DNA from: a virus
IMG/VR virus record: IMGVR_UViG_3300027733_000042
Coordinates: 1-64,000 of that record
DNA: 64,000 bases
Strand: one strand, 5' to 3'
Shown here: in pieces, positions 9,258-48,606 of the stretch
Numbering within the stretch: the first letter of the stretch is position 1
How the letters are laid out: every line of letters begins with the position of its first letter
Notes under the pieces: generated by a model
Told to the model about the DNA's origin: nothing
What the model saw: the letters and a program-made list of their open reading frames with translations, nothing else
Databases searched by the model: none
Program-made: the position numbers and the translations under genes

Positions 9258-9644
9258 TTACTTTGCAGGTTCTTCTTCAGGTGCTTCTTCTCCTTCTGGA
9301 GCTTCTTCGCCTTCTGGAGCTTCTTCGCCTTCTTTTCCTTCTTCCTCTTCGCCTTCTTCACCACCTTCAAGTTTTTCAACTCTTTCAGTTAAGTCTTCAA
9401 TCATAGCTTTTAAACTATCAAGAGTTACAGGTTCAGTTTCTTCTCCTTCTGGAGCTTCTTCTCCTTCTGGAGCTTCTTCTTCCTCTGGATTAGCTCCAAA
9501 TTTAGCGTCAGTATTCCAATCATCGAGTGATTCAATTTTATTGTTTACGATTCCGGCAGGGTTACTGTTTTTTGGGCTATAATCACCCATATCTTGTTCA
9601 TTTACACAGGTTTTCATAAAGCCTGCAAAGTTCTTTACTCTCAT
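9258..9644 (-). CDS. Acidic repeat protein, probably capsid-packaged
   Basis: 128 aa. The N-terminus MRVKNFAGFMKTCVNEQ resembles the T4 capsid-targeting motif. The C-terminal half is low-complexity and extremely acidic, with a hexapeptide EEAPEG repeated in at least two blocks (about residues 53-68 and 108-124) around a short coiled-coil segment (LDSLKAMIEDLTERVEKLE). Acidic internal proteins may serve as counter-charged core or scaffolding material in proheads. It has its own late box (9671-9662) and a terminator, so it forms a single-gene unit. Confidence 0.7.
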   Translation of the reverse strand: MRVKNFAGFMKTCVNEQDMGDYSPKNSNPAGIVNNKIESLDDWNTDAKFGANPEEEEAPEGEEAPEGEETEPVTLDSLKAMIEDLTERVEKLEGGEEGEEEEGKEGEEAPEGEEAPEGEEAPEEEPAK

Positions 9645-9661
9645 TGTTAATTCAATTTTTT

Positions 9662-9671
9662 ATTATTTATC
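9662..9671 (-). promoter_or_regulatory. Late-type promoter box GATAAATAAT
   Basis: The recurrent box followed by AAAAAA, 17 nt upstream of the acidic protein's ATG. It lies just after the stop of the preceding gene. Confidence 0.65.
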
Positions 9672-9678
9672 TGATAAA

Positions 9679-10182
9679 TTAACTCGTTTTCTCAGTTTGT
9701 AACTCAGCTTTAAGCAAATTGATCTTTTCATCGATTTTACGAATTGCCTCCATTGATTGACGAAACATCATCGATACTGAAAATAATCGTTGTGCAGACT
9801 CGATACCCTTTCCGCTAATCTTCGTTAAGAAGAAATTAATTGGTTCAATAGTAGATGCAGGTAATTGAATTTTAATAGGTGTGGAGTCTTTTGGGTCCAT
9901 TGCTTGTAACGTATTGTCAAGTGTTAAGACTGACATGATTATCAAGTATGCTTCATTTGGGCCTTTCCATTCAACTTTCTGATTGATTGTATTTTTAAGG
10001 AATTTTAAATCAGCATGATTGATTCGAACTTCGAATTCACCAGTACGGCGATTAATCAATTGATTTAATTGGTCTTGCGGAGTTACCGGTTCAGCGATTG
10101 CGTCGTCTTGAACTGGTGTAACAGCCGGTGTAGCAACTAGAGTTTCTTCTGCGCTTACTGTTGTGTTTTCGGTATTTTCCAT
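9679..10182 (-). CDS. Unknown virion-associated protein, 167 aa
   Basis: 167 aa. A disordered N-terminus rich in Thr, Val and Glu (about residues 1-35) is followed by a compact helical region (DQLNQLINRRTGEFEVRINHADLKFLKN...) and a C-terminal helix that may form a coiled coil. It lies between the packaged hydrolase and the acidic protein, which suggests virion assembly. No family recognised. Confidence 0.6.
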   Translation of the reverse strand: MENTENTTVSAEETLVATPAVTPVQDDAIAEPVTPQDQLNQLINRRTGEFEVRINHADLKFLKNTINQKVEWKGPNEAYLIIMSVLTLDNTLQAMDPKDSTPIKIQLPASTIEPINFFLTKISGKGIESAQRLFSVSMMFRQSMEAIRKIDEKINLLKAELQTEKTS

Positions 10183-10227
10183 TTTTAGAATATTTTAATC
10201 TATTCTACTTAGGACAAGTAAATGGTT

Positions 10228-11916
10228 TTATGCCAGAGCAGCAGGTTCGACGTCTATTGTAAAATTTTTCTCAATTTGCTTGGCATTTGCATAAGTTTCA
10301 GTACCTTTAACTTCTTTGCCGCCTGCGTTCGCTTTAACAAATGCGTATGTCGCATCTTCTTGATTAGTAAAGCTATTTGGGTCTAAATTTAATCTCTTTA
10401 CTCCATTAATAAGTAAGGAAACTGCAACCTTTGCTGCAGTAGCTTTATCATTTAATAGATCGGGGTTATTTACAAGATCAAGACCAACTTCTTTACCATA
10501 TTTGTCATATAAATACTTAAACGTTACTCCATTAAATCCGCGACCACGATATTTATATCCATCGCCAGGTGAAGTGTTTCCAGTTTCCCAACCAAGAAAA
10601 GATTTTGCTTCAGGTCCATAAATTACATCATAGAATTTTACATTGTCTTTTTTCAATTCTTCCAATTGAGGATCCGTGAATCGGGTAAGTCGTGCACCAA
10701 ATATTCCTCGTAGTCTGGAATTATCAGTTCCGCTATAACTATATTCTGATTTTGGGATAAATCCGCTTTCTTTACCAATAACTGAAAGTATTCCAACTTG
10801 TGAATATGGATTTGTTAAATTTTCTTTTTCCATCTCACCAATTAAAATATTGATATTTGCTGCTTTATCTCCAGTATATGTCGATTTAATTTTTCCACCA
10901 GCTACACTAATTGTATTTGGTACAGTCTTATTTGGAGTACTTCCAAATAGCGCAGAATATGTCTGCGGCCCAACTATTCCATCAACTCCAATATTACTTG
11001 CAGTTTGAAATGCTTTTACCGCATTATATGTATCTTTATCAAATTCTCCATTTGGCTCCTTAGTAAGAAGCCCTTTTTCTTTTAACTTCTTCTGAAGCTC
11101 AGTGACTGCATCACCAGTTGATCCAGACTTAAGTAATTTTGCGCCAGATTGAATTTGTGCCATTGTGATATCTTGTTTATTTTTACTGTTTACTGTGGTA
11201 ATCATCGTTGCGACAAACTCGCGATCCGTCATCTTGCCTGAAGACCAGTCAGTAAGCGCAGCCAATGGCATGCCAGCCGAATCTGATAACTCTTTCTTAT
11301 TTTCAGGCGATAGTGCATTAATTTGATCTTTATTTTTAAGATATTGAATCGTATTTGGTTTAGCCATTGCTGCATCAATTTGTGCATCACTTGGAGAATT
11401 AGCTGAATATGCAGTAGACTGAGTTTGTCCTTTTATGTCTTGTACACTAGCCGTATGTTCCCAATGCCATGGTTCTCTAGGAATATTTGAAAATCCATAT
11501 GTTGCGGCATTCGCTTTTAACCAATTTAATGATTTATCGTAATTTGCTTGTTGTTCTTGTGATAGCGGACGTTGTGCTCCAGGACCTGCAAGATTTAGAT
11601 CGACTGCGCTACCCCAACCATGATTAGATGTGCCAGGTGTTGCGGCTAGTCCGCCTTTTGAATATAATCCTTTTTCATCAGCAAGTTTTTGTTGTATTGC
11701 AAGAGTTCGATACGAATCTGTAATTCCCCAAGTAACACCATCTTTTTTTGCAGCATCCACCATTTTTGAGTAAGCGTCAGCTGCTGTTGGGTTTAACTTA
11801 TGATTTGATGAATCTCCAGGTAAAGTTGGAATAATATCTAGAGTATCTGCCGAGAGTTGTCCGTTCGACGCTTCATGTATTGCCTTCCATTTATTATAAT
11901 TTACAAGATATGTCAT
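10228..11916 (-). CDS. Three-domain peptidoglycan hydrolase (M15 peptidase, PG-binding, GH19-like)
   Basis: 562 aa with three recognisable domains. Residues about 35-160 are a VanY/M15 peptidase: SNHGWGSAVD supplies zinc ligands H99 and D106, and the WHWE motif near 150 the third. Residues about 260-325 are a peptidoglycan-binding type 1 domain (GDAVTELQKKLKEKG, FDKDTYNAVKAFQ). Residues about 355-560 look like a GH19 chitinase/lysozyme, with catalytic-type E383 (IGKESGF) and GYKYRGRGF at 453-461. It would cut both peptide stems and glycan strands. The N-terminus NYNKWKAIHEA resembles a capsid-targeting motif and there is a late box, so it may be packed in the virion and used at entry rather than only for lysis. 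Confidence 0.9.
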   Translation of the reverse strand: MTYLVNYNKWKAIHEASNGQLSADTLDIIPTLPGDSSNHKLNPTAADAYSKMVDAAKKDGVTWGITDSYRTLAIQQKLADEKGLYSKGGLAATPGTSNHGWGSAVDLNLAGPGAQRPLSQEQQANYDKSLNWLKANAATYGFSNIPREPWHWEHTASVQDIKGQTQSTAYSANSPSDAQIDAAMAKPNTIQYLKNKDQINALSPENKKELSDSAGMPLAALTDWSSGKMTDREFVATMITTVNSKNKQDITMAQIQSGAKLLKSGSTGDAVTELQKKLKEKGLLTKEPNGEFDKDTYNAVKAFQTASNIGVDGIVGPQTYSALFGSTPNKTVPNTISVAGGKIKSTYTGDKAANINILIGEMEKENLTNPYSQVGILSVIGKESGFIPKSEYSYSGTDNSRLRGIFGARLTRFTDPQLEELKKDNVKFYDVIYGPEAKSFLGWETGNTSPGDGYKYRGRGFNGVTFKYLYDKYGKEVGLDLVNNPDLLNDKATAAKVAVSLLINGVKRLNLDPNSFTNQEDATYAFVKANAGGKEVKGTETYANAKQIEKNFTIDVEPAALA

Positions 11917-11935
11917 CGACTAATATTCTTTTCTT

Positions 11936-11945
11936 TTATTTATTT
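11936..11945 (-). promoter_or_regulatory. Late-type promoter box AATAAATAAA
   Basis: A variant of the recurrent box, 20 nt upstream of the hydrolase start and overlapping the end of the NUDIX gene. Confidence 0.5.
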
Positions 11946-12445
11946 CCGCCTAACACAAGAAGTCGGTCTAATATAATTAGTTGTGATCGTGTGATAATTG
12001 GATACGCTTCTTCTGGAGTAACAAATTTTGCCCAATCGACCTCTTCAATTTGGAGTTGGCTTATTGGCACACGTTCTGTTTCTAAGCCGATTTCAGAAAG
12101 ATCATTTATTTTACAGATAAAATAGATGAGTTGTCGTTCAACTTTACGCGTTTTACTATAAAAATTAACTAGCTCTGGACTGGGATCGAGCTGTCCAGCA
12201 TCTAATATTATTCCAGTTTCTTCGCGTAATTCACGAAGAGCAGCAGTAATCGGTTCTTCACCAGCTTCCATGCTTCCTTTTGGGATCCCGCAAATTCCAC
12301 GTTGCCATGTACCACCAGTTGGGTGTACTAATAATATTTTATTTTGATAGATTATCGCGACGCCGGCTGCCATTCTCTTTTTCAAGTTAGGATTAATGTC
12401 TTCGTAACCTTCACTGATATAGTCGTTAAAGTTCAGAATTACCAT
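11936..12445 (-). CDS. NUDIX hydrolase
   Basis: 169 aa. The complete NUDIX box runs from G57 to I79 (GSMEAGEEP..., REL..., REETGI), with the REUxEExGU metal-binding glutamates intact. NUDIX enzymes hydrolyse nucleoside diphosphates linked to other groups, such as oxidised dNTPs, NAD, ADP-ribose or capped RNA; the substrate cannot be told here. The first 13 residues, LNFNDYISEGYE, precede the fold and resemble the T4 capsid-targeting motif, so the enzyme may be injected with the DNA. The start overlaps the end of the bS21 gene by 20 nt. Confidence 0.92.
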   Translation of the reverse strand: MVILNFNDYISEGYEDINPNLKKRMAAGVAIIYQNKILLVHPTGGTWQRGICGIPKGSMEAGEEPITAALRELREETGIILDAGQLDPSPELVNFYSKTRKVERQLIYFICKINDLSEIGLETERVPISQLQIEEVDWAKFVTPEEAYPIITRSQLIILDRLLVLGGNK

Positions 12446-12617
12446 ACTTTATATTCTTATATTTTGCTAATTGTAATGCTTCTCTCTTTTTAACAGATGG
12501 TTTCTTAAAAGTCTTGCGATCTCGAAGCTCACGAATAGTACCTACCTGATCGCTCTTCTGTCGATATAACTTAAGACATGCCTCTATTTTTTTATTATTA
12601 CAATTTATGATAATCAC
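12426..12617 (-). CDS. rpsU: Phage ribosomal protein bS21
   Basis: 63 aa, the usual length of bS21. The pattern MIIINCNNKKIEACLKLYRQKSDQ, TIRELRDRKTFKKPSVKKREA follows bacterial bS21: a short strand, a first helix, RELR, the FxKPSxKR turn and a second basic helix. bS21 binds the small subunit near the anti-Shine-Dalgarno end of 16S rRNA. Phage bS21 can replace the host copy. In Bacteroidota, bS21 helps hide the anti-Shine-Dalgarno sequence, so a phage copy could change which mRNAs are favoured. Start is GTG overlapping the upstream stop (TAGTG). Confidence 0.88.
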   Translation of the reverse strand: MIIINCNNKKIEACLKLYRQKSDQVGTIRELRDRKTFKKPSVKKREALQLAKYKNIKYGNSEL

Positions 12618-13465
12618 TAGTCTGCGTATTTTTTAAAATCAATTGAATGTTTTGGTTTAAGTAAAGCAGAGTCATAATATCTCTTCTTGTAATACGGTTT
12701 TATGTATGTTTCAAATAATTGGGTTTTAAACCAATTTGGTAATTTGGCAACATAAAAATCTTCGTACGCGTTTTCGTACATTTTTATACTTTGTGATGGA
12801 CTTAGGTTTAGAGAAGTTGAAATTGCATCTAAGTATAAATTATCACCAGACTCAACTAGTCCAAGATGATAGAAATCTAGTGGGTATTCTGAGGCGATTG
12901 ATTCAATTATTGTATTTACTTGATCTAAGTATTTGAATCTTGAAGGATTAATATCAAACCCTAGAGTATTTGTTTTTTCTTGAACATGAATCGGTCTGTC
13001 TTTAAATGCCAGCACATCGAATCGCGTATTAGGTATCTTCTTTTCTCTAAATATTGGGAAGTGTCTTTCTGATTTTCTAAATTTTCCAAATGTTTTGAAG
13101 ATCTCGGAATTATCACCATCAACTCCGGTGACAGGAAATTTTAAACCTTTGACTTTTGATCGGTCAATTGTTGATTTAGGGATAAATTGATTGCCGCCAA
13201 GCTTTTCACAAAGTTCTTCGTATGTTGGAATCGGTTTAGTATTGAATATATAACTTTCATTTACAGTATCTGTAGGATATTTAAAATTATTCCATAAAAT
13301 GACTGGTGCAGTTGAACTCAATGCTCGAGTTTCTGAAGACTCTGTGATATGGTTAAATACGTCTACTCCATAATTCTCAGAGCAAGCTAGAACTACGCGT
13401 TTTTCAAAATTCTTTGGATCTTTTGAATAATATGCTGCATAATCTGTAAAATTCTTTAGTTTCAC
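12617..13465 (-). CDS. Unknown protein with capsid-targeting-like N-terminus, 282 aa
   Basis: 282 aa, GTG start at 13465. The N-terminus KLKNFTDYAAYYSKD resembles the motif seen on other genes here. The middle has PVTGVDGDNSEIFKTFGKF near residue 110 and the C-terminal third LYLDAISTSLNLSPSQS, a layout reminiscent of ATP-grasp proteins, but I cannot show the metal-binding residues. It is the first gene of a three-gene unit with bS21 and NUDIX, preceded by a late box at 13490-13481. Confidence 0.65.
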   Translation of the reverse strand: MKLKNFTDYAAYYSKDPKNFEKRVVLACSENYGVDVFNHITESSETRALSSTAPVILWNNFKYPTDTVNESYIFNTKPIPTYEELCEKLGGNQFIPKSTIDRSKVKGLKFPVTGVDGDNSEIFKTFGKFRKSERHFPIFREKKIPNTRFDVLAFKDRPIHVQEKTNTLGFDINPSRFKYLDQVNTIIESIASEYPLDFYHLGLVESGDNLYLDAISTSLNLSPSQSIKMYENAYEDFYVAKLPNWFKTQLFETYIKPYYKKRYYDSALLKPKHSIDFKKYAD

Positions 13466-13480
13466 GAGAATAGTCTTTTT

Positions 13481-13490
13481 ATTATTTATC
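13481..13490 (-). promoter_or_regulatory. Late-type promoter box GATAAATAAT (leftward)
   Basis: The minus-strand member of a divergent pair, 16 nt upstream of the GTG of the 282-aa gene. The two boxes are separated by 5 nt on opposite strands. Confidence 0.65.
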
Positions 13491-13495
13491 GCGAG

Positions 13496-13505
13496 GATAA
13501 ATAAA
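13496..13505 (+). promoter_or_regulatory. Late-type promoter box GATAAATAAA (rightward)
   Basis: The plus-strand member of the divergent pair, 14 nt upstream of the ATG at 13520. Confidence 0.6.
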
Positions 13506-13519
13506 ATAAAGTATTTTTC

Positions 13520-14614
13520 ATGATTAAGTCATTCAATAATTGGTCCTCGTTAACCGAAGCTATCGCCAAAGGTAAAGATACAATGACCGACCCTACATCT
13601 GGCAAGACACATAAGATTACATATAAGGTTCAATCCAATACTAAATTTGTTATGAAAATAATTAACGATTTAGATGTAATTGACGCATCAAATAAATTAA
13701 CTGCAACTGGAATAGAGGCAATTAAAAACTATCTTAATGATGAAGATCAATTTACGATGACACTCGGTCAATTGACTCCTTCTTTCTTTACTAAAAAATT
13801 CATCGTTTATACTATTTTAAAAGATGGTGAGTTATTTGGGAGAACTAAACAGAAGATTCAATTTGAAATTATTGATAGAAATGATGCCTCTGGAGCACCA
13901 GTACACCCAAACATTACTGCAGGTATTCAATTTATTGACGATGTGAGTTTCAAAGCACTTTCAACTCTTGCACCAGCAATTGTTACTGATCTACTAAATA
14001 CTGCAAATCAAGCGCAACTTCCCGATCCAGCAGCAGACGATGCTAAAGCAAAGGATGCCGGAAATAACGAAACAAAGAAAGAACAGGGTAAGAAATTCCT
14101 GTATACTATGCGAACAAATAGTAAACTTTATAAAATGGAGTTTATTGAAAATGGTTCAATTACTGCAAAGACGCAAGACGGGTCTGATCCAAACGGAACA
14201 GTATCATATGATACACAAAACAAGAAAGTAATGTGGACAACTACATTAGATGATGCTGAATCAAAAGACAGTAAATTATCTAAGAGTACATCAACTCCAT
14301 TATTTAGTGATTCTGAAATAACAAATACTCAAGATAAAACATTTTTGGAGAAAATGTTCACAGATGCTGCATTTAGAAAGAAAACAATTGATGACTACGA
14401 AAAAGACTATGCATCGACTGAATTAACACCAGAAAATCTTCGTAAAATGTTATTTTATAAAGATGGAAAATCAATTTTTGGTACAAATGCTCCTGCTGAA
14501 ACTCCAGGAGCAGCAACTGCTGGACTAAGTAAAGATAAAGAGAATGCAATTATTAAAGGATTAGCAGATCTTAAAACATCATTTAATACTCCTGCCCCTG
14601 CAAAAACTGCTTAA
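13520..14614 (+). CDS. Unknown probably capsid-packaged protein, 364 aa
   Basis: 364 aa. The N-terminus IKSFNNWSSLTEAIAKG matches the recurrent motif. The rest is soluble, with strand-rich segments (TSGKTHKITYKVQSNTKFV; NSKLYKMEFIENGSITAKT) that may be repeated beta domains, and an Ala/Pro/Thr-rich tail. No enzymatic signature. It starts the plus-strand unit with the 534-aa gene 16 nt downstream. Confidence 0.65.
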   Translation: MIKSFNNWSSLTEAIAKGKDTMTDPTSGKTHKITYKVQSNTKFVMKIINDLDVIDASNKLTATGIEAIKNYLNDEDQFTMTLGQLTPSFFTKKFIVYTILKDGELFGRTKQKIQFEIIDRNDASGAPVHPNITAGIQFIDDVSFKALSTLAPAIVTDLLNTANQAQLPDPAADDAKAKDAGNNETKKEQGKKFLYTMRTNSKLYKMEFIENGSITAKTQDGSDPNGTVSYDTQNKKVMWTTTLDDAESKDSKLSKSTSTPLFSDSEITNTQDKTFLEKMFTDAAFRKKTIDDYEKDYASTELTPENLRKMLFYKDGKSIFGTNAPAETPGAATAGLSKDKENAIIKGLADLKTSFNTPAPAKTA

Positions 14615-14630
14615 AAATAACATATATTAC

Positions 14631-16235
14631 ATGTTTTTAGATAAACGACAATACACACAAATCTATGAAAATTACTTAAATCCAGTTCTTGAACAGGGAC
14701 CTGCTGTAATTTCAGACGATTTAAACACTCGACTTAAAGGGTATTTAGATAATGACCAACTTCTTACGAAGCTCGGAGAAATCCTAACTGCTCACGACAA
14801 AGGAGAATATGAATTAACTGATCTTGATAAAAAGACATTTGGTATATCTGACGAAGATAGACTATTTGTAAAGGTTGATAAATCAGAAAAGGGTGATCCT
14901 AAGTTTTTTATGTGGATCATGAATGATCAGTTTCTATGGGGCGATCTAGATATGGAAACAGCAGCAGCTATCTTAAAAGCCGGCGGTGAAGGAACTGACT
15001 GGACAGAACGCGGAGTAATTGGTTCAATTGGAAGTTTCTTTGGAGGAAATGGTTCTGGTGATGCTGGAACAGATGAAGGAACAATTGCATCTCTTGCTGG
15101 AGCATTCGCACAGATTGCTGCAGAAAAGAGTGTCGATCCACAAATCTATTTTGATAAACTTGATGCTGTTTTCAAAGATAAGTATAACAAGTCAATTAAA
15201 GATTTTATGGAAGAGGAATTTAGCGGGTATGGAGAAGTAGTTTCATGTAATCTATATCGTCGTAAAATTGAAGCATCAGTATTACGGGGATTGAATATTT
15301 GGAGTATACTCGGAGATGTAGCATTAACTATTGTTACCTTTGGAGGATCTGCATCATTTACTGCAGGTTTAAAAGGTGCAGAAATTGCAAACGCTACATC
15401 AAAGGCAAGTAAATTAGCAAAAGCAACTGGCATGGCACAGGCAAGTGCAACACTCGGTAGAGGAATTGGAGCGTTAGCTGATATTACAAGATTAAGTGCA
15501 GTATTTGCAAAATTAGAAAAAGCACGTCAAATTGCAGCTTTAGAAAAAATTGGAGTATCTGCAGGAAAAACGATTGAATATAATCGTGGTGGAAAAATGA
15601 TAGCGCATGAAGTTGTTTCAGTAGGCGAAGGCGAAGTTAAATTAATGGTAAAAGGAACGAAACAGACTTTCTCTACACCATTTGAAAGAGTACCTGGATA
15701 TCTTACTCCGGAAAAAGCAACCGAGTTATTTACCGTTGCTGGAGTTAATTTAACTCCAATGGGAGTTCTAGCAGCTAAAAAGGCAGGAGATATTGGAACA
15801 TCTGGTTCAACTCCAGCTGGCGCTGAAGAGCCTGGAATAGCAACAAAGGGTGCAGAAGCTATGGGATGGTATGATACAATGGCGGCAGATCCGAGTGCAT
15901 ATATTGCAAATGCAAAACAGCAAGGAGCATCAGATATTGCATCAATGTTACTTGATCTTAAAAACGGTAGCGGATTATTTGGAAACACTACTGACCAAGA
16001 AGAGTGTTCAATTGCTTTACTTATTACTGGATTAACTCCAGAAATGGCAAAAGAAGTTAGTATCGCATACGGAAAGATTGATGCTAAAATGAATGTCTAT
16101 GCAGTATTAGATGATGAACTTGGTGGAGATATTGCAACCCTAGCAAAAGCATACTGGACAGGTTGTACCGGCGAAGGTGATGAATATAAAGAATCAATCA
16201 CAAATTTACTTGAAAAGATTAAGAAGAAAGATTAA
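14631..16235 (+). CDS. Probable ejected membrane-active protein, 534 aa
   Basis: 534 aa. A long hydrophobic and Gly/Ala-rich stretch lies at about 220-280 (LNIWSILGDVALTIVTFGGSAS...). Two segments, near 145-205 (GTDEGTIASLAGAF, KYNKSIKDFMEEEFSG) and 460-515 (DQEECSIALLITGL, LDDELGGDIATLAKAYWTG), faintly resemble annexin-like repeats; this is only a by-eye resemblance. Together with the packaged neighbours it may form a pore or channel for DNA delivery. Its stop overlaps the stop of the convergent 633-aa gene by 4 nt. Confidence 0.6.
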   Translation: MFLDKRQYTQIYENYLNPVLEQGPAVISDDLNTRLKGYLDNDQLLTKLGEILTAHDKGEYELTDLDKKTFGISDEDRLFVKVDKSEKGDPKFFMWIMNDQFLWGDLDMETAAAILKAGGEGTDWTERGVIGSIGSFFGGNGSGDAGTDEGTIASLAGAFAQIAAEKSVDPQIYFDKLDAVFKDKYNKSIKDFMEEEFSGYGEVVSCNLYRRKIEASVLRGLNIWSILGDVALTIVTFGGSASFTAGLKGAEIANATSKASKLAKATGMAQASATLGRGIGALADITRLSAVFAKLEKARQIAALEKIGVSAGKTIEYNRGGKMIAHEVVSVGEGEVKLMVKGTKQTFSTPFERVPGYLTPEKATELFTVAGVNLTPMGVLAAKKAGDIGTSGSTPAGAEEPGIATKGAEAMGWYDTMAADPSAYIANAKQQGASDIASMLLDLKNGSGLFGNTTDQEECSIALLITGLTPEMAKEVSIAYGKIDAKMNVYAVLDDELGGDIATLAKAYWTGCTGEGDEYKESITNLLEKIKKKD

Positions 16236-18133
16236 AACCTAGAATAAGGGATAATATAACGAAGGTGTGAAAGTGATTCTTTTACACCTTTTTCTTTTTC
16301 TGAATGAGTCGTCGCATTTGCAAGTTCTGGAGTATCTACTGTTCCTTTACGAACACTATTCCAAAAATCTTCAAACTGATCATCAGTATCACCATATTTT
16401 TTATAGATTACTGGAATAATACTTGGCTGACCAAATAATTTGGCATAATTGTTTTGATAATTTGTAATTCTATCAAATGTTTCTTTTTCACTAGAATCAA
16501 AATTTGCTGCAGGCAGATATGTTGCGCCAGCCTCTTCTTTTTGTTTGTGAATATCTTGTGCAATCCATGTCTGCATAGCCGAATTTCCCCAATATTTAAT
16601 TTCTTCTTCCTTATATCCAGCCTTCTGTGCGTCGACTCCAGTAATTAATTTAATAATCTGTTTTCCAATGAATAGTGAAAGTTGACCTGCAGATTTTGTG
16701 ACTCTCCAGCCTTTCTTTAAGAAATATTTACCGACTCCTTCAAGCATCTTAGTATTAGATGATGCAACGCTTGAATAATATTTAGCAATTGCTTTTTCTT
16801 CGCCAACTGCAAATAAACCAGTTGCTTTTTTATCAAATACTTTGACTAGGTGCTCTGCTGGAAATTCTTTAGTTAGAAGCTTGCCGTCTGATCCGATAAT
16901 TTTTGCAGTTTGTGTAACTGGATCGATTTCCATTGCGATTTTGCTATCCTTTAGCATAGCCTCAACTGCAACATCTGCGTCCTTTGCTGCAAGATCAAGA
17001 GCGACTTTTTCAGCTTCACCAAATTCTTTTGAAAAGTTACCAAGTTTTTCTCCATACTTTGAGAAAGCTTTGCCCATTGTTTCAAAGAAACCTTTCAACG
17101 GCTTACCGATAAATGGAATCCAGCCAACCACTTTTCCAACAAATGCTTCAAAGAATTTTCCAAGCATGCCAGTAGCTTTGCCTAAAGCCTCAGTAACATT
17201 TTTTGCAATAAATCTTAATAATTTAATAGCTGGGCCACTCTCTTTTGCTGGTAATTTAGCTAGCATTTCGCCGCCTTCTTTACTTCCGCCTTTCATCATT
17301 GCCATAATTACTGGCTCTGCGGCGTTTGCTCCAGGTTTAAGAAGCTTTATCATATCTCCTGCACCAAATACCAATGCTCCGATTAATGAAATACAGCCTA
17401 ATAGCCATTTACCTCTAATGAAATAGATGATTGCGTTAATAATATCGGCAATGGCACCGACTCCGGGAATAATAAAATCACCAAATGCTCCAATAATATC
17501 AAGTAACAGATGCAGAATACCGATCGGCGATCCGCCTTCAGTAATTCCATCGTATAAACTATTTAGAAAGCCTAAAACTCCACCTTTACTATGTTGAGTT
17601 GCAGCTCCTCCAGCAAGGGCTGCATCAAACTCTTCTGGAGTTCCTGCAATTTGACCTGCTGGTGCAGGTGGAGTAGTAGATGCAGTTGCCGGTTTTGCGC
17701 CGCCAATTAGAGCAGCTTTTAATTGATCTCCAAATTGAGTAGTTGGAATCGCGGCTGCTGCCTGTTCAGTAAGTAGAGTAGTAAGTTTATCTTTTACACG
17801 AAGTCTAAAAATTTCAGCGGCTTCGTTTATTTTAGTTGAATTTGGAACTTTTAGCTTAATTTTAGCCTGTTCAAGTATCTCATTCTTTCCTGAGATAAGT
17901 TCCTTATAGTAATTAGTAACTGCTTTTGCACCCTGATTTAAAATCATATCTAGGTGTAGGTCAAACGCAAGATTCTCCGGAATCGACATTTCAGCAAGAT
18001 TTAGCATCTTTGCTTCCCATTCAATGTTTTCAAAGGTTATTACTGGCGCAAAGATATGCTCATTTCCTTTGAAATATTCATTTATTAGTTTGGTTGACTC
18101 CGGTTGAGAGCCGTATGCTGAAACATATTTCAT
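16232..18133 (-). CDS. Probable ejected membrane-active protein, 633 aa
   Basis: 633 aa. Residues about 185-265 are strongly hydrophobic with the pattern IGILHLLLDIIGAFGDFIIPGVGAI... followed by IRGKWLLGCISLIGALVFGAGD. This GxGxIxD...GxW..A.ISLIxxxxxGxGD arrangement also occurs before toxin domains in polymorphic toxins and in membrane-inserting proteins. The flanks are helical. It ends in TAG and has a late box at 18161-18152. With its convergent neighbour it may form a membrane-crossing complex. No catalytic domain is recognised. Confidence 0.6.
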   Translation of the reverse strand: MKYVSAYGSQPESTKLINEYFKGNEHIFAPVITFENIEWEAKMLNLAEMSIPENLAFDLHLDMILNQGAKAVTNYYKELISGKNEILEQAKIKLKVPNSTKINEAAEIFRLRVKDKLTTLLTEQAAAAIPTTQFGDQLKAALIGGAKPATASTTPPAPAGQIAGTPEEFDAALAGGAATQHSKGGVLGFLNSLYDGITEGGSPIGILHLLLDIIGAFGDFIIPGVGAIADIINAIIYFIRGKWLLGCISLIGALVFGAGDMIKLLKPGANAAEPVIMAMMKGGSKEGGEMLAKLPAKESGPAIKLLRFIAKNVTEALGKATGMLGKFFEAFVGKVVGWIPFIGKPLKGFFETMGKAFSKYGEKLGNFSKEFGEAEKVALDLAAKDADVAVEAMLKDSKIAMEIDPVTQTAKIIGSDGKLLTKEFPAEHLVKVFDKKATGLFAVGEEKAIAKYYSSVASSNTKMLEGVGKYFLKKGWRVTKSAGQLSLFIGKQIIKLITGVDAQKAGYKEEEIKYWGNSAMQTWIAQDIHKQKEEAGATYLPAANFDSSEKETFDRITNYQNNYAKLFGQPSIIPVIYKKYGDTDDQFEDFWNSVRKGTVDTPELANATTHSEKEKGVKESLSHLRYIIPYSRF

Positions 18134-28735: not shown

Positions 28736-29209
28736 TTATGAATTGATAAATTGTGAGAATGACATTACATGAGTAGATGTAGATTCGTAGACTCGTTCAA
28801 TTGTCTCAGGATAAACTTCCTGTATTTCTAACGTTTTTGGATTCTTTATATAGACTTGGATCGAATTGTTTGTATAATCAGGAACAATTTTATGTAATTT
28901 GCCAACTACCGATACTCCATTTTCATGGTCAAGCATCGAGTTTACGATAACACCTCTAATTCTGTCACCCGGTTTATAAAATAACTTTAATTTACTAACT
29001 GCAATATCAAAATCTGTATATCCCTTGTCTCCCTTAATTGATAAGTCAACGAATGCTTTTTGAGATATTGAAATACCTGGTGTAAATTTACTACGACCTA
29101 CTGTGAAGTTAAAATCTCCCTTGGTTCCATAAAATGGAATTCCTCGAGTAAAATCTCCTCGAGAAACAAGTGGTGATATATTATTTTCGTTAACGTTTTC
29201 CATTACCAA
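28736..29209 (-). CDS. Unknown structural protein, 157 aa
   Basis: 157 aa, beta-rich (DFNFTVGRSKFTPGISISQKAFVDLSIKGD...). The segment LKLFYKPGDRIRGVIVNSMLDHENGVSVVGKLHKI near 72-106 looks like a small barrel. The C-terminus VMSFSQFINS resembles the capsid-targeting motif but is at the wrong end. Last gene before a terminator; overlaps the upstream gene by 7 nt. Confidence 0.6.
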   Translation of the reverse strand: MVMENVNENNISPLVSRGDFTRGIPFYGTKGDFNFTVGRSKFTPGISISQKAFVDLSIKGDKGYTDFDIAVSKLKLFYKPGDRIRGVIVNSMLDHENGVSVVGKLHKIVPDYTNNSIQVYIKNPKTLEIQEVYPETIERVYESTSTHVMSFSQFINS

Positions 29210-31189: not shown

Positions 31190-31651
31190 CTAAAATAGCC
31201 AGAGTGCTAGGCCAATTAAAATTAGTGCAAGGGTTGAAAAGTATGAAACTGCATATACTAGGACAGGGCGTTTATACTTTTTGTAGTCGAATGTGATTTG
31301 TAGAATATATCCATAATACTCTTCATTTTTAATCCTGTCATACTCAACTTTAACTGAATCAAGTATTCCCTCCTTAGTTAGGAATTCAGTATATTTTTTC
31401 ATTCGATCACTAATCATTTTAAGCTCAACTGATTCAGATGATGTTTCTGAATACATTAATATCTCAGGATTAAGATTTACACCAATATATAAATTGGAAT
31501 CAGCATCTACTAAAAGACCGATTGCATCTAACTTGCCATCTTTTTGTAGTTCAGCAATTATTGATTTGTACTTTGCAAATCGGGCTAAGTCTTCAAGACA
31601 GCCTTGAAGACTTTTAAAAATTTTTACTGGGTTGATTTTGTCTAAGATCAT
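31190..31651 (-). CDS. Tail-anchored membrane protein next to the sigma factor, 153 aa
   Basis: 153 aa. A soluble N-terminal domain of about 125 residues is followed by one C-terminal membrane helix (about 133-152, [22 protein letters not shown]). The start ATG overlaps the sigma-factor stop (ATGA), so the two are made together. ECF sigma factors are often paired with a membrane anti-sigma factor, so this could be a regulator of the sigma factor. That is inference from context; no anti-sigma domain is recognised. Confidence 0.55.
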
Positions 31652-32274
31652 ATTATTGTTCGTATTTTTTCTTCGAGATCAGGATTGTCTTTAATTACTG
31701 CTTCTCGAATATCTACTCGAATTTTGCGAAGTTTGGTCTTCACAGTATTTTCATTCATTTTATAGTCGGTCGCAATTTGTCTAACCTTTTTATTTTTTAT
31801 CATCTTATCGATTGCGATGTTTTTCATCGTCTCATCGTTAATATTATAAATTTCAGCAAGGGTCTTTGCATATATCTCTTCCACGTCAAGGTGGTATGAT
31901 TGTGTTATTTCAAAATCATCGGCTTTATCTACTTTCTGATAAAGATCATCAATATCAAGATGGGTATGCTTTTTCTTATGGTAGAGGTAATATAGGGTCT
32001 CATTTCTAGCGATCGTGTAGATCCATGTAGTAAATCTGCCTTTTTCGAATTTAAACTGTGCGACATTTTTAAAGATACGTTTAAGACTATATTGTAGTGC
32101 TTCTTCTGTATCAAATTCATTTTTACAGAATTTCCACACGAAAAATTTTAATTTTGGATAAATTAGAGAAGCTAGCTCATTTCGCTCAACTTCAGTAATT
32201 GCATCTGTTAATAATTTTTCAGAAATTTCTTTTATTCTTAGATTGACTCGTTCATTGATTTCGTCGTATCCCAT
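31648..32274 (-). CDS. Phage sigma-70-family factor (ECF-like), probable late sigma
   Basis: 208 aa. Region 2 lies at about 40-105 ([28 protein letters not shown], then [22 protein letters not shown]), the standard sigma core-binding and -10 element segment. Region 4 is the HTH at about 160-195 ([24 protein letters not shown]). The size fits ECF or T4 gp55-type factors. Repeated TATAAATA-like boxes before structural genes match what gp55 recognises in T4, so this is the likely late specificity factor. Confidence 0.85.
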
Positions 32275-39480: not shown

Positions 39481-42400
39481 ATGCCTGTTTATAAAAATTT
39501 AAAGGCTGTGCGCAAATTAACAAACTCAAGTCTGACATCAATTATTGATATCACAAATTTGAACTTTGCGAGCCTTTCTAATGCAAATTTAGAATTTTTA
39601 ACAAATATTAAATATGATGAGGTTTTAAATACTTTTCAAGTATACCGCGGAACATTTGATTTTGTGAATATTACTGATAAGCTTAGCTTGACACTAGATG
39701 GAATCCCAACATTTACAATTGACTCACTAGGCCGTGCTGAAGGGCAGCAGTTATTAGTTAAAGTAGCTGAAACAAAACGTCAGCGTTTTACTGATTTTAA
39801 TGATTGGCCAGAGATTGGTGTTCCAGGTGAAATAATTTACACTGGGATTCAAAACCAACGCCCACAATTTGGAGAAGACTTTATTGGATATCTTCAGAGT
39901 CGTGGATGGGTAAGTTTAACTGAGCCAAATGCTGCAGCATTCTTAACACTATATGAATTAGCAGGAAGTCCACCAGTACCAGCATGTCCAGCAGCAAATA
40001 CTGGAATAATTTGGGTAGGTCCTCCAGGTTATGAAACAGCAACTGTTCCAACTACACAAACTCTATATTATACTGATGAAAACTGTAATATCTACGATCT
40101 TACTGGCGGAGGAGGAGGCGGAGCAACACTAATTTCAATCACATATGCACAATTAGTAACAGCAATTGGTGCTGGAACTCTTATACCAGGTCAGCAATAT
40201 TTACTGACTAATTATCAAACAGTATATGACCAGCCAGATTATGATAATAGTGGAGCGATAAAATATCCAATTGTCACAAAGACCGGAACGGTGGAGCCTC
40301 TAATTCTTACTGCAACATCCACGACAACCATCTCGGCAACTGCACTATCTGCTGTTTGGCCAGGAGATAGAATTCAATATGATTGGAGCTTTTCGTTCAC
40401 TGAACTTGGGTTACAACCTGCACTTGGAAGAATCTCAGAGCGAATTACAGCAGACGATAATAATAGAACAAGTTATGACCATCGTGCCGTATTATTTAAA
40501 AGATATGCAGATACATTAACTGGCTGCTTTACTGAAATTAACGAACCTTATCCTGGTGCAACATATCGAGACGATACACCTACATTTGGAGTAGAATGTG
40601 ATAATATGTTCCTCGGCGGAATCTTTGATGGATTTGGATTTGACGATCCAGCATTTATTGTACCTAATAGTATCTTTGGCGATTACTGCGAAAGTGTTAC
40701 TACTGGAGGCGATTTTTATAATAATACGATTGGGTCATTTGATCCAGTCGGACTTGGAGCATTCTGTTACGGTACAGTATTTGGGCACTGGTGTCATAAT
40801 AATAAAATCGGCGATGGGTTTTACAATAACCGCATTTTTAACGAGTTTTCTAATAACGTAATTGGTAGCGATTTTAACCAAAACGATATTGGAAACGGCT
40901 TTAGCGAAAACCTTATTGGCAATAGCTTTATTCAAAATACGATTCTAAGCAATTTTAAAAAAAATATTATTTCAGATAGCGTATTTTTATCAAACGTTAT
41001 TGATGATGATTTTTTGGGAAACGAAATAACAAAGACGACATTTCAAAACAATAGCATTGAGGATTATTTTCAAAATAATACTATTGGGGATAGCTATTTT
41101 TCAAGTGGCTTTTTCCAAAATAATCAAATCGGTGATTCCTGTTCCAATAACTATATGAGTAATTTTACAGCGAATCAGATTGGATTTAGCTTTTTTGGGA
41201 ATGGATCTAAATTTGCGTATATTGATACATTCGATGGAAACCGAATTGGTGACCATTTTGAGAAAAATTTTGCATATAATTTTTATAATAATAGAATCGG
41301 GGATTACTTTAATAATAATGGATCGCCTGAGTCAAAAACCGGCAGAGTTGCTACGTTTTCTTCAGCTATAACATTTCCAACTGCTGGAGGGTATACTACT
41401 GGAACATATTTAGATATTCCAACACTTGGTGCAGGTATCGGATTTACGGTAGATATTGTCGTAGATGGTGCTGGCACAATTGCAAATTTTAGTGATATTG
41501 TTTTAAATTCTCAAGGAACTGGTTATCAAACTGGTAATATTGTTGTAATTGATGGAGCAGAACTTGGCGGAGTTAGTGGAGTTGACGATATTGAACTTAT
41601 GATTGAATCTATTTCATTTGTAGCAAATTACTGTTACGAATTTCATGATAATATTATCGGAAACTACTTTCAGACTGGCAATCAGGTAAATAATTTAAGC
41701 TCAAATAAAATCGGAGATTATTTTCAGACAAATGGTGATCAAAACACTCCATGTTCAGACATGAAGAATAATGTAATCGGTGACGGCTTTAAATTAAATT
41801 TTGTAAATACGTTTAATAGCAATCACATAGGCAATGACTTTGTAGGCAATACTGGCTGGTCAAAGAATTCAGTATTTAGTAATTTTATATCTAATCAAAT
41901 TGGTGATAATTGTCATCTAAATAAAATGCCTGATGTCTTCGGTAGCAATAAAATCGGTAACGACTTTTTTAGGAATACTTTTCAAGGACAGGAGGCTAGC
42001 AGTAATTTACAATATTTTGGAATTAATCCAGAGACTGAGCAAAATGATGGAAACGTGATTGGTGACTACTTTGCATACAATGCCTTTTCCAGTGTAACTG
42101 GTAAACTTCACTTTACTGGAAACCATATTGGAAACTACTTCGGCGGACGACTCGATGGTAAAAATGGTCCAGGAAATACTATTTCTGGAGGGCAGCCGTT
42201 TGCAGACAATTATATCGGAAATGATTTTTTCTCAAATTATATTTATTTAGATGGAAGTGGCAAAGCTGGATTTATCGGTAATACTATTGGAACTAAATTT
42301 TGGTATAATGCGATACACGGAGACTTTTCATATAATACACTTGGTAGTTTCTTTCAAACAAATGTGAGCAACGGATTCCAATATAACTGGACCCAATATG

Positions 42401-42549
42401 CGGTGATTGGTGTAGATTTTACGGCCAACCCAGCAACTCATGTTTATAACCCATATACATGTAATATATTTGCGAATTCTACTGGAACTCTGAGATTAAG
42501 TTATTTCGATAATTTGGATGTTCAAATAATAACTGATCCTGATCTATAA
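39481..42549 (+). CDS. Tail fibre/appendage with long IG-F-N beta-helix repeat
   Basis: 1022 aa. A phage-type N-terminal region of about 380 residues includes a Gly-rich linker near 216. From about 395 to 980 short units of the form N-x-I-G-x-x-F-x-x-N recur every 9-12 residues, for example KIGDGFYNN, VIGSDFNQN, DIGNGFSEN and LIGNSFIQN. This is the periodicity of a right-handed beta-helix with Asn ladders. A beta-sandwich-like insert of about 95 residues interrupts it near 620-715. Such helices form rigid receptor-binding or depolymerising fibres. Most related repeats are known from phage appendages; receptor unknown. Confidence 0.8.
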   Translation: MPVYKNLKAVRKLTNSSLTSIIDITNLNFASLSNANLEFLTNIKYDEVLNTFQVYRGTFDFVNITDKLSLTLDGIPTFTIDSLGRAEGQQLLVKVAETKRQRFTDFNDWPEIGVPGEIIYTGIQNQRPQFGEDFIGYLQSRGWVSLTEPNAAAFLTLYELAGSPPVPACPAANTGIIWVGPPGYETATVPTTQTLYYTDENCNIYDLTGGGGGGATLISITYAQLVTAIGAGTLIPGQQYLLTNYQTVYDQPDYDNSGAIKYPIVTKTGTVEPLILTATSTTTISATALSAVWPGDRIQYDWSFSFTELGLQPALGRISERITADDNNRTSYDHRAVLFKRYADTLTGCFTEINEPYPGATYRDDTPTFGVECDNMFLGGIFDGFGFDDPAFIVPNSIFGDYCESVTTGGDFYNNTIGSFDPVGLGAFCYGTVFGHWCHNNKIGDGFYNNRIFNEFSNNVIGSDFNQNDIGNGFSENLIGNSFIQNTILSNFKKNIISDSVFLSNVIDDDFLGNEITKTTFQNNSIEDYFQNNTIGDSYFSSGFFQNNQIGDSCSNNYMSNFTANQIGFSFFGNGSKFAYIDTFDGNRIGDHFEKNFAYNFYNNRIGDYFNNNGSPESKTGRVATFSSAITFPTAGGYTTGTYLDIPTLGAGIGFTVDIVVDGAGTIANFSDIVLNSQGTGYQTGNIVVIDGAELGGVSGVDDIELMIESISFVANYCYEFHDNIIGNYFQTGNQVNNLSSNKIGDYFQTNGDQNTPCSDMKNNVIGDGFKLNFVNTFNSNHIGNDFVGNTGWSKNSVFSNFISNQIGDNCHLNKMPDVFGSNKIGNDFFRNTFQGQEASSNLQYFGINPETEQNDGNVIGDYFAYNAFSSVTGKLHFTGNHIGNYFGGRLDGKNGPGNTISGGQPFADNYIGNDFFSNYIYLDGSGKAGFIGNTIGTKFWYNAIHGDFSYNTLGSFFQTNVSNGFQYNWTQYAVIGVDFTANPATHVYNPYTCNIFANSTGTLRLSYFDNLDVQIITDPDL

Positions 42550-43677: not shown

Positions 43678-43782
43678 TTACTTGGCAATCGATAATTCAT
43701 GAGTAGCATGATATTTCAATTCATTTGAAATTTCTAAACTCTCTCCTATAAATTGGATAAAACTTTTTAATCTTGTTTCCAT
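43678..43782 (-). CDS. 34-aa peptide with capsid-targeting motif
   Basis: ATG-started 34-aa frame in a gap between structural genes. The first 18 residues TRLKSFIQFIGESLEIS match the T4 capsid-targeting pattern (F-x-x-F-I-x-E), and a late box AATAAATAAT lies 5 nt upstream. It is essentially a targeting peptide with a short tail. It may be a small internal protein or a decoy substrate for the prohead protease. Confidence 0.5.
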   Translation of the reverse strand: METRLKSFIQFIGESLEISNELKYHATHELSIAK

Positions 43783-46803: not shown

Positions 46804-46813
46804 AATAAATAAT
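46804..46813 (+). promoter_or_regulatory. Late-type promoter box AATAAATAAT
   Basis: The recurrent box followed by AAAAAG, 16 nt upstream of the TTG start at 46830. It would drive the 273-aa and metallopeptidase genes. Confidence 0.65.
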
Positions 46814-46829
46814 AAAAAGAAGATTAACT

Positions 46830-47651
46830 TTGAAAAAGGATTTTATATTAGACCCGCTCTGGATTACCCAAGGCACCTATTTAGACTCGGAATACTTTAA
46901 CTATGTTCTCTTGGGTGCCAGTGTGAAGTATAAAGAGGAGATCGCAGCTGATAATATTGACCGATTTTATGAGGTCATGTTTCATATACTTAATTTGAAC
47001 AATTTAGCCGTGACCGGTAACATATTTACTGCAAAATACAAAGAAATTTGGAAAGAAGCTAGAATTAAACAGATTCAGGATGAATTGAAGAAAGTATATG
47101 ACTTGCCTGAAGAAACTGCAAAGATTTTTAAGAATGCAAATTACGTGTTCTTGAATATTGCTATTGAGTACATGAAGATTCATCTTGATATCTTGGACAA
47201 GATTAAATTATTTCATATGAATAGAGATATTCATTGTGAAAAAGAAATATTTATTGTAACAAATAAACTTGGAACAAATATTTATCGAATTTGGAAGCTG
47301 TCAGATGACCCAAAAAGAAACTTTGGCTACTCTTTCTCAAAGGTAAAAACGATCACTATTCCAGACCTGGCAAGTAATTCATTTGGAACAGCCGCTGATG
47401 CAATAAATGATCCAAAGCTAATTGGATTAACTAGTAGTAAAAATGTATGTTTTGCCGTTATTCAAGAGAAAGAAGATGAATCCATGGTTGCAAAAACTGT
47501 GAAGGACACCCTGCTTCTAAATAAAGGCATTGCTAAGAATCGCGGGTTTGAACCGCTCCTAATTGCCGAGTTATATCGTTATATTTGGATAGAAAAAATG
47601 TTACCATTTACGCTAAGTCAATGGAGATCAGAAAATGTTAAAGAACTTTAA
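46830..47651 (+). CDS. Unknown protein, 273 aa
   Basis: 273 aa, TTG start (TTGAAAAAGGAT), soluble and mostly helical (EETAKIFKNANYVFLNIAIEYMKIH). No catalytic motif. It overlaps the metallopeptidase start by 17 nt, so the two are translationally coupled; it may be an assembly or packaging partner of that protein. Confidence 0.65.
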   Translation: MKKDFILDPLWITQGTYLDSEYFNYVLLGASVKYKEEIAADNIDRFYEVMFHILNLNNLAVTGNIFTAKYKEIWKEARIKQIQDELKKVYDLPEETAKIFKNANYVFLNIAIEYMKIHLDILDKIKLFHMNRDIHCEKEIFIVTNKLGTNIYRIWKLSDDPKRNFGYSFSKVKTITIPDLASNSFGTAADAINDPKLIGLTSSKNVCFAVIQEKEDESMVAKTVKDTLLLNKGIAKNRGFEPLLIAELYRYIWIEKMLPFTLSQWRSENVKEL

Positions 47652-48606
47652 TCAATTTATTACTGAAGCTCGAGGATTCTCGACAACCGTTGAGGAATAT
47701 GCACAAGTGTGTAAGACTCTAATCAACGCAACGCTCGACAAATATATCGCTGCGAATAGGACTGAGTTTACTAATTTTAGTAAGTCGATTATACTTAAAG
47801 ATGCCTATCTAGAAGTATCTCAGGAGGCCGCTACTAAATTTCCATTAGACCAAATTAAGATACTGTTTGAGATTTCGGCAGTTGACGAGGAGGAATTTAT
47901 TCCCTATGCTGCGCACTATCAACGCAATTACAATAAAGTAAAATTAATTGAAGGTAAGGGTGTCAAAGTAAAAATTGATATGTTGTGTAAATTTGTTGTG
48001 CCGAAGACCGGTGGTCAAATTGATCGAGCAGTAATCAATAAGTATTTGGACGATATTTTAAATCATGAATTGACTCATGCATACAATGATTACAAAGATC
48101 CAAATTTCTTTAAAGACTATCGTCTTGGTATGACGACTCAGTATGCTGCAGAAACATATCCATACTTGATGAAGTCTCGAGTGCTTAAGCTATTTTTTGA
48201 TTTGCTCTATGTCTTAACACCGACTGAGATAAAGGCAATTGCTGGTGAGCGTAGCGAATTTAAAAGTCAAGAAGAATTACGTGAATATAGTGGATATCGG
48301 TGGTCACAACTCGCAAGAGATTTTGACCCAGATGAATATTATGAAATTATCCTTTCCCAAATCGAAGATCGCCGATTCGTTCAATATATTGATACGAAAT
48401 TTGGTGAATTCTTTGTAAATGTATATGTTGACTCTGTACACCAAGACAGTGCAACAGTTGACCCTAAAATTCTTAGACTTAAGAAATCTGCAGGTTTAAT
48501 GGATGTGTTACGCTTCTTTGAACAAAGAATACATAAGGGCGGCCAAGAACTTTTTAGGAAATTGGCCGCGAAAGTTACTGATCAAGGATCCGGTAAACTT
48601 ATCTAG
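47635..48606 (+). CDS. Zinc metallopeptidase with capsid-targeting N-terminus
   Basis: 323 aa. The N-terminus LKNFNQFITEARG is the best match here to the T4 capsid-targeting sequence (MKTYQEFIAEA). A zincin motif HELTH lies at 144-148, in the helix LDDILNHELTHAYNDY; a more distant third ligand is not certain. After it come helices and a C-terminal region with FFEQRIHKGGQELFRK. If packaged, it would be injected into the host and could cut a host protein early in infection. The HExxH identification is firm; substrate unknown. Confidence 0.75.
   Translation: MLKNFNQFITEARGFSTTVEEYAQVCKTLINATLDKYIAANRTEFTNFSKSIILKDAYLEVSQEAATKFPLDQIKILFEISAVDEEEFIPYAAHYQRNYNKVKLIEGKGVKVKIDMLCKFVVPKTGGQIDRAVINKYLDDILNHELTHAYNDYKDPNFFKDYRLGMTTQYAAETYPYLMKSRVLKLFFDLLYVLTPTEIKAIAGERSEFKSQEELREYSGYRWSQLARDFDPDEYYEIILSQIEDRRFVQYIDTKFGEFFVNVYVDSVHQDSATVDPKILRLKKSAGLMDVLRFFEQRIHKGGQELFRKLAAKVTDQGSGKLI

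Follow-up and report, generated by a model that had tools for sequence, protein, structure and literature searches.

A 64,000-nucleotide window of viral DNA (IMG/VR record IMGVR_UViG_3300027733_000042, positions 1 to 64,000) encodes a set of dissimilar proteins that share short N-terminal tags, and these tags are in all likelihood cleavable capsid-targeting propeptides of the T4 type. Capsid targeting alone is well supported, loading of unrelated enzymes into the head is very likely and the tags are probably removable; we infer that they are cleaved and that the cargo is injected into the host. Support at the level of sequence comes from the motif itself, its enrichment, its conservation, the swapping of cargo behind it, late-type promoters, and resemblance to the scaffold and capsid proteins of relatives. 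The tag set is a much expanded variant of the known T4 system, and what is new is the match to the scaffold.

The class I tag, [FYW]xx[FYW][ILV]xE within the first ~25 residues, was found in 27 of 525 ORFs from four related genomes, where 2.2 were expected (p=2e-16); G000 has 5 (0.4 expected) and its relative G002 has 12 (0.6 expected). The class II tag, [FY]xxWxx[IL]xE, is two residues longer and occurs in 15 of the 525 ORFs against 1.4 expected (p=3.5e-9). W occupies motif position 4 in 11 of 13 class II tags versus 2 of 27 class I tags (p=2e-6), and spacings beyond these two forms showed no clear enrichment in the same ORFs. An [ILV]xE[AGSQ] site after class I or II tags is present in 40 of 525 ORFs (2.2 expected). 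Aromatic-aromatic pairs (57 versus 8) are the sole residue class with so large an excess; K/R-K/R pairs, which rank next (45 versus 12), are due mainly to a different family of tags in LR756502. When G002 was searched blind for triplets, FxxxIxE ranked first.

The first-pass annotation had described at least seven N-termini sharing F-x-x-[FWY]-hydrophobic-x-E in one cluster at 9258-18133. All of the quoted N-termini are present at the named genes, and three (FNDYISE, FNQFITE and FIQFIGE) match strictly. FNNWSSLTE (13520) and YNKWKAIHE (10228) fit the +2 form instead, FAGFMK (9258) has the aromatic pair with a floating site, and FTDYAAYY (12617) lacks [ILV]xE. Genes 43678 and 47635 fall outside those coordinates. 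The tag on 14631 had been missed, as had those on two genes outside the window. The first-pass set also included two putatively pore-like proteins lacking a clear motif. The window holds three proteins with the strict form, two with the +2 form and two with a looser form; 12617 and 16232 are weak candidates (Table 1).

Table 1. Candidate tagged proteins and late-type promoter boxes in the window; a slash marks the putative cut
Feature	Position	Strand	Remarks
Acidic E/G-rich protein	9258..9644	-	N-terminus NFAGFMKTCVNE/Q; aromatic pair and floating VNE site
Peptidoglycan hydrolase (VanY + PG-binding + GH19-like)	10228..11916	-	class II tag NYNKWKAIHE/A
NUDIX hydrolase	11936..12445	-	class I tag NFNDYISE/G; Pfam NUDIX 2e-14 from residue 23
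Protein without assigned family, weak candidate	12617..13465	-	FTDYAAYY N-terminus, aromatic pair without [ILV]xE site
Protein without assigned family	13520..14614	+	class II tag SFNNWSSLTE/A
Protein with hydrophobic segment	14631..16235	+	tag-like YENYLNPVLE/Q
Protein with hydrophobic segment, weak candidate	16232..18133	-	LINE/Y near N-terminus
34-aa ORF METRLKSFIQFIGES...	43678..43782	-	class I tag FIQFIGE and remnant of a 189-aa protein
HExxH (zincin-like) protein	47635..48606	+	class I tag NFNQFITE/A
Late-type promoter box ATAAATAA	9663..9670	-	for 9258-9644, 26 nt upstream
Late-type promoter box ATAAATAA	11936..11943	-	for 10228-11916, 27 nt upstream
Late-type promoter box ATAAATAA	13482..13489	-	for 12617-13465, 24 nt upstream
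Late-type promoter box ATAAATAA	13497..13504	+	for 13520-14614, 23 nt upstream
Late-type promoter box ATAAATAA	18153..18160	-	for 16232-18133, 27 nt upstream
Late-type promoter box ATAAATAA	43789..43796	-	before 43678-43782

Tags are kept among orthologues, and the cargo domains behind them are swapped. The peptidoglycan hydrolase matches Pfam VanY (1e-16), PG_binding_1 (5e-16) and GH19 (6e-6); its tag precedes other catalytic domains in relatives, and a GH19 protein without the tag is present in G005. The NUDIX tag is kept in G002 and G005 and is absent from the LR756504 homologue and from T4 NudE. NUDIX domains thus occur both with and without a tag, and one tag stands before different hydrolase domains, which shows that the cargo domain does not need the tag and that the tag can move between cargoes. 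The NFAGFM N-terminus of 9258-9644 is kept in G002 and G005 at a varying distance from VNE. The 13520-14614 tag is kept in G002 and G003, with YKSWGSVNE/G in the G005 homologue; 14631-16235, which starts 17 nt after this gene, keeps its tag-like N-terminus in G002 and has YNNYQGAVNE/Q in G003. The G005 orthologue of 16232-18133 starts MHSFSEYL...KLFE/T, and the 189-aa protein corresponding to the 43678-43782 remnant is whole in G002. In the 47635-48606 protein, F5, F8, E11/A12 and H144 E145 xx H148 are invariant in six relatives. Its zincin label comes only from the conserved HExxH: a structure model (pLDDT 57, half of it low confidence) gave no significant Foldseek match and no related solved chain. 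PHROG and Pfam yielded no family for 12617, 13520, 14631, 16232 or 47635. Tags also occur outside the window, on genes 81830 and 82318 of the genome; a weak PADLOC match of 81830 to DpdD (E 0.005) was not believed.

As the first-pass annotation had stated, most of these genes have late promoters, or at least late-type ones: a box, RATAAATAA, lies 14-32 nt upstream of seven of the eleven candidates, and the remaining four sit just behind, or overlap, another same-strand gene. Upstream of 47635, a box at 46805 precedes gene 46830.

A PF03420 search of the phage's own 90.8-kb fragment found no gp21-family prohead protease, and the enzyme, which the first-pass annotation had expected elsewhere in the genome, was therefore sought in relatives; it is present in G005, G006 and G007. 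In relatives this gp21-type protease is fused to the scaffold (S77 family match 2.5e-12) and matches the solved T4 protease 5jbl. The scaffold part consists of 8-14 tandem 14-residue repeats with the tag motif at the start of each. An AlphaFold model of the fusion (pLDDT 41, low confidence) displays only long helices over the repeats. Period-14 motif repeats were found in 12 of 12 relatives' loci and also in LR756502, LR756501, LR756504 and LR745206. All of these arrays are homologous and form one lineage. The major capsid protein of relatives has an N-terminal W-K-P-[VI]-L-E that resembles the class II tag. Since the contig stops short of the head genes, we infer the scaffold repeats of the phage itself from its relatives. 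The tag-scaffold and tag-capsid resemblances concern short motifs noticed after the fact. A letter-by-letter position matrix built from the scaffold repeats misses most tags, with no clear matches beyond G002, and we therefore claim a likeness only at the level of residue classes; tags prefer F and the scaffold prefers Y.

Mutational work on the T4 capsid-targeting sequence, MKTYQEFIAE, as summarized in PMC9026906, assigns targeting to residues 4 and 7 and permission for cutting to residues 8 and 10, and the clade motif residues coincide with both pairs. The same summary places the gp21 cut after L/I-x-E, where T4 core proteins are likewise cut, and attributes the sequence on IPI, IPII and IPIII to Mullaney and Black 1996. 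Like these internal proteins, the clade proteins have an N-terminal propeptide of ~10 residues with aromatics at motif positions 1 and 4, I/L-x-E before the cut, late genes and, in relatives, a gp21-family protease. IPI also offers a parallel for FAGFMK...VNE/Q of 9258, as its cleavage-like site also floats relative to an aromatic pair. The clade differs in its far more numerous and varied cargo, in a second tag class (W, +2 spacing) and in a scaffold made of tandem motif copies. The relatives resemble T4 gp21/gp22/gp23 in the S77 protease and L/I-x-E sites. Maturation of T4 gp23 removes 65 residues (PMC9958956); its propeptide contains WKPLLE and ends in FGSFLTE (residues 59-65), both like clade motifs. 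Protease and scaffold form one fused protein in relatives, unlike in the T4 head, and period-14 arrays are absent from gp22. Because T4 has the targeting sequence though gp22 carries a single YxxYV, the repeats are not required in general.

Other phages share parts of this arrangement. P1 DarB has an N-terminal signal for head packaging, but the available account gives P1 no common consensus, unlike the clade tags (PMC9024508). In phiKZ and SPN3US, a relative of gp21 cuts head propeptides off after E, although the propeptides described for SPN3US often exceed 100 residues, unlike the short clade tags (PMC9026906, PMC5694885). The accounts drawn on here report no aromatic-pair motif for P1 or phiKZ/SPN3US (PMC9024508, PMC9026906, PMC5694885). 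In Sphingomonas phage PAU, many small proteins likewise begin with a short tag: MK[TS][IL]xxLYEAKLNE/A is found on 20 ORFs, including four of five annotated internal capsid proteins (p=8e-5), and the PAU capsid protein has WGAKLNE/S at the same spacing, so that the LNE/A or LNE/S end is shared. The PAU tag differs in sequence, and PAU has neither motif repeats nor an aromatic-pair tag. In PTm1, motif and blind searches found no tag motif, no motif repeats and no tag of its own, and PTm1 therefore supplies no independent replicate of the scaffold link.

The claim of T4-type capsid targeting is strongly favored by the residue match to the T4 sequence, the [ILV]xE/[AGSQ] site, the relatives' gp21-family protease, the late-type promoters and the scaffold motif; it does not extend to every protein first listed, 12617 being weak and 43678 a remnant. 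These data have led us to propose a model whereby tagged cargo would be made late in infection and would dock onto the prohead core, presumably through the aromatic pair. Closure of the shell would enclose the docked cargo, and a gp21-type protease would then release it by cutting after [ILV]-x-E. Released cargo would stay among the packaged DNA and probably enter the next infected cell together with it. Resemblance of the tag to pieces of the scaffold and shell proteins suggests how it might be recognized. Class I tags ([FY]xx[FYW][ILV]xE) may copy the scaffold's 14-residue repeat, and class II tags ([FY]xxWxx[IL]xE) the W-K-P-[VI]-L-E segment of the capsid protein N-terminus. That the tags are mimics, each cargo bearing one scaffold unit or scaffold-facing capsid segment and co-assembling as a head part, is a tentative proposal with somewhat less than an even chance.

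The tags might instead bring proteins to the head and keep them there as structural components of the inner core, with no delivery into the host. The 9258 protein resembles an acidic core protein, its prohead-core-like composition being comparable to that of T4 gp67; cutting of T4 core proteins at the same site would suit this reading too, and ejection is itself conjectural. However, NUDIX, ADP-ribosyltransferase, RNA ligase, PPK2 and peptidoglycan hydrolase have no obvious structural use and in this resemble T4 Alt, an injected ADP-ribosyltransferase, and IPI, both of them active inside the host; we consider a purely structural role unlikely. Short aromatic-bearing N-terminal helices can also act as address tags for the membrane, replication compartment or baseplate, with an incidental [ILV]xE end, and packaging in the clade is a prediction from sequence. 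Such an address is improbable, as the spacing and the E/small-residue junction match prohead protease specificity, the scaffold repeats are built from the same motif and late-type promoters precede most tagged genes. Recent duplication of a few genes, biased N-terminal composition or chance is scarcely credible as the source of the shared N-termini: tandem paralogues do occur among tagged genes (G002 122028/122498; many in LR756502) and the N-termini are rich in lysine, but the cargo families (NUDIX, GH19, ART, HExxH) are unrelated, strong enrichment is limited to two main spacings of aromatic pairs, and PTm1 and PAU, analysed by the same method, show no comparable excess.

Under capsid targeting, the cargo would be diverse. 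In relatives it includes an ADP-ribosyltransferase domain protein (ART-PolyVal, G002), likened to Alt by enzyme kind, and an RNA ligase and PPK2 in the 642-kb LR756502, which has ~70 tag-bearing ORFs; these three kinds fit host takeover. To our knowledge, NUDIX, peptidoglycan hydrolase, RNA ligase and polyphosphate kinase are not enzyme kinds found in T4 heads. Tags in giant relatives may load dozens of different proteins.

According to a 2023 review, the way in which proteins are brought into the scaffolding core of T4 is mysterious (PMC9958956). Since the scaffold of this lineage repeats the tag motif in tandem, that question becomes directly testable. Sequence alone would reveal the probable protein contents of a giant phage's head, a list of candidates for host takeover and counter-defence, and the tags might act as loading signals for phage-borne protein delivery.

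The first-pass annotation had described at least seven N-termini sharing F-x-x-[FWY]-[hydrophobic]-x-E and read them as a T4-like set of injected proteins. Every quoted N-terminus was found in the sequence, and three of the seven fit the strict form [FYW]xx[FYW][ILV]xE (class I); the other four deviate, two carrying two extra residues ahead of [ILV]xE (the +2 form [FY]xxWxx[IL]xE, class II) and one a floating VNE. The N-terminus of the uncharacterised 12617 protein lacks a cleavage-like site. In 525 ORFs pooled from the virus fragment containing the window (G000) and three relatives (G002, G003, G005), with expectations taken from internal segments of these proteins, the strict form occurs on 27 ORFs versus 2.2 expected (p=2e-16). 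Another 15 ORFs bear the +2 form, versus 1.4 expected (p=3.5e-9). Both p-values are somewhat overstated because homologues were counted as independent. Enrichment is weak at spacing 3 and absent at spacings 1, 4, 5 and 6. The aromatic-aromatic pair (57 vs 8) is the sole residue-class excess of such size; K/R-K/R pairs (45 vs 12) come mainly from the MKHLKxYKIFES family of the huge-phage record LR756502. Within G002 by itself the strict form occurs 12 times versus ~0.5 expected, and a blind search made FxxxIxE the top gapped triplet; the blind search of G005 did not single it out. A RATAAATAA box lies 14-32 nt upstream of 7 of 11 candidate genes. By sequence these boxes resemble T4 late promoters, TATAAATA.

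G000 is a linear fragment of 90,786 bases with a T4-like terminase, closest to those of uncultured huge phages (460-640 kb), Flavobacterium phage MaF61, Prevotella Lak phages and Sphingomonas phage PAU, each below 60% identity. Syntenic genomes, among them G002 (131 kb), G003 (58 kb) and G005 (207 kb), were identified from relatives of the 47635 protein. G000 stops short of the genes for the major capsid protein, the scaffold and the protease; an S77 protease is encoded in G005.

Further features of the fragment (genome positions)
Position	Feature	Observation
14631-16235; 16232-18133	Uncharacterised proteins	Long hydrophobic Gly-rich segments (IPGVGAIADIINAIIYFIRGKWLLG...)
28736-29209	C-terminal motif	Ends SFSQFINS (SFxQFINS in 4 relatives): class I motif at the opposite protein end, E replaced by S, possibly giving docking without cutting
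31648-32274	Sigma-factor-like gene	Could read RATAAATAA boxes
39481-42549	Tail-fibre-like protein	Many NxIGDxF repeats; 1022 aa vs 342-493 aa in relatives
43678-43782	34-aa remnant	Also present in G001; whole 189-aa gene there in G002, so cargo seems lost from the phage species by deletion
74279-75925; 85979-86278	GroEL- and GroES-like genes	Phage-encoded; off-window

Capsid-targeting sequences are already known from T4 and, as regards function, also from P1 (PMC9024508) and phiKZ-like phages (PMC9026906, PMC5694885). PMC9026906 states that residues 1-10 of T4 IPIII (MKTYQEFIAE) suffice for head packaging, that residues 4 and 7 serve targeting and 8 and 10 processing, and that gp21 cuts after L/I-x-E; positions 4, 7, 8 and 10 are the motif's four positions. 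In T4 IPI (MKTFKEFTSTTTPVSTITE/A, the slash marking a cut or cleavage-like site) the aromatic pair and the cut can stand apart, as in the acidic 9258 protein of the window. The tag is kept among orthologues while the sequence behind it varies in length (in NUDIX orthologues, GYEDINPNLKKRMAAGV vs SEDLSNLAAGV), NUDIX homologues of LR756504 and T4 are untagged, the same tag precedes differing hydrolase domains across G000, G002 and G005, and G005 additionally encodes a GH19 protein without it; these comparisons show that the tag is a module. Recognisable tagged cargo comprises NUDIX, VanY/GH19 peptidoglycan hydrolase and ART-PolyVal ADP-ribosyltransferase domains; LR756502 adds polyphosphate kinase 2 and a T4-type RNA ligase. 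HExxH is invariant in the 47635 protein, for which a fold search gave no match; family searches gave none for the 14631 and 16232 proteins, whose hydrophobic segments recall translocation segments preceding polymorphic toxin domains.

The tag resembles parts of the head itself, likenesses noticed after the fact. A 659-residue G005 protein begins with the S77 protease (2.5e-12), which matches solved T4 gp21, and continues as tandem repeats whose period is exactly 14 residues; every repeat opens with [FYH]xx[YH][ILV]xE (e.g. YSEYIKE, YQNYLAE, YTEYVAE). The array is present in 12/12 loci of this protease-scaffold protein. The huge phages LR756502, LR756501, LR756504 and LR745206 (635-735 kb) have 11 to 14 copies (e.g. 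YSEYIAENLDKNIA), and the array of LR756500 is decayed. A class-pattern match in some 7-residue window of such a repeat has a chance of ~0.003 (2.4e-4 per position). Tag and scaffold agree in residue classes rather than in individual letters, and all arrays have a single common origin. T4 has the tag, yet lacks scaffold repeats. The adjoining capsid protein starts TW[KN]P[VI]LE/[SGA] in close relatives, akin to WKPLLE/G of T4 gp23, and shares its W...[IL].E spacing with class II tags (YNKWKAIHE, FAKWKQLNE, FSKWKKLNE); W stands at position 4 in 11/13 class II versus 2/27 class I tags (p=2e-6). The known gp23 cut removes 65 residues (PMC9958956), and residues 59-65, directly ahead of it, read FGSFLTE, a class I motif.

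The repeat-clade motif was not found in PAU proteins, and neither tag nor motif repeats in PTm1. PAU carries a different tag, MK[TS][IL]xxLYE(AKLNE/A), on 20/286 ORFs, including 4 of 5 proteins annotated in its record as internal capsid protein (p=8e-5), and its capsid protein has WGAKLNE/S with the spacing of the tag. The tagged PAU ORFs cluster near head genes. In LR756502 (642 kb), ~70/938 ORFs have aromatic-pair N-termini, including 39 of the form Yx[IL]FE[SA] versus 3.9 expected; many belong to one extensive group of small paralogues (MKHLKxYKIFES...).

A full-text literature search did not find a scaffold built from the tag motif, two tag classes or equally wide cargo, and a 2023 review called the placement of proteins in the core mysterious (PMC9958956). 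We propose that each tag is a docking peptide that copies a component of the head itself, whereby tagged cargo would join the prohead core, become enclosed in the head and be freed by the prohead protease cutting after E, probably to be ejected along with the DNA.
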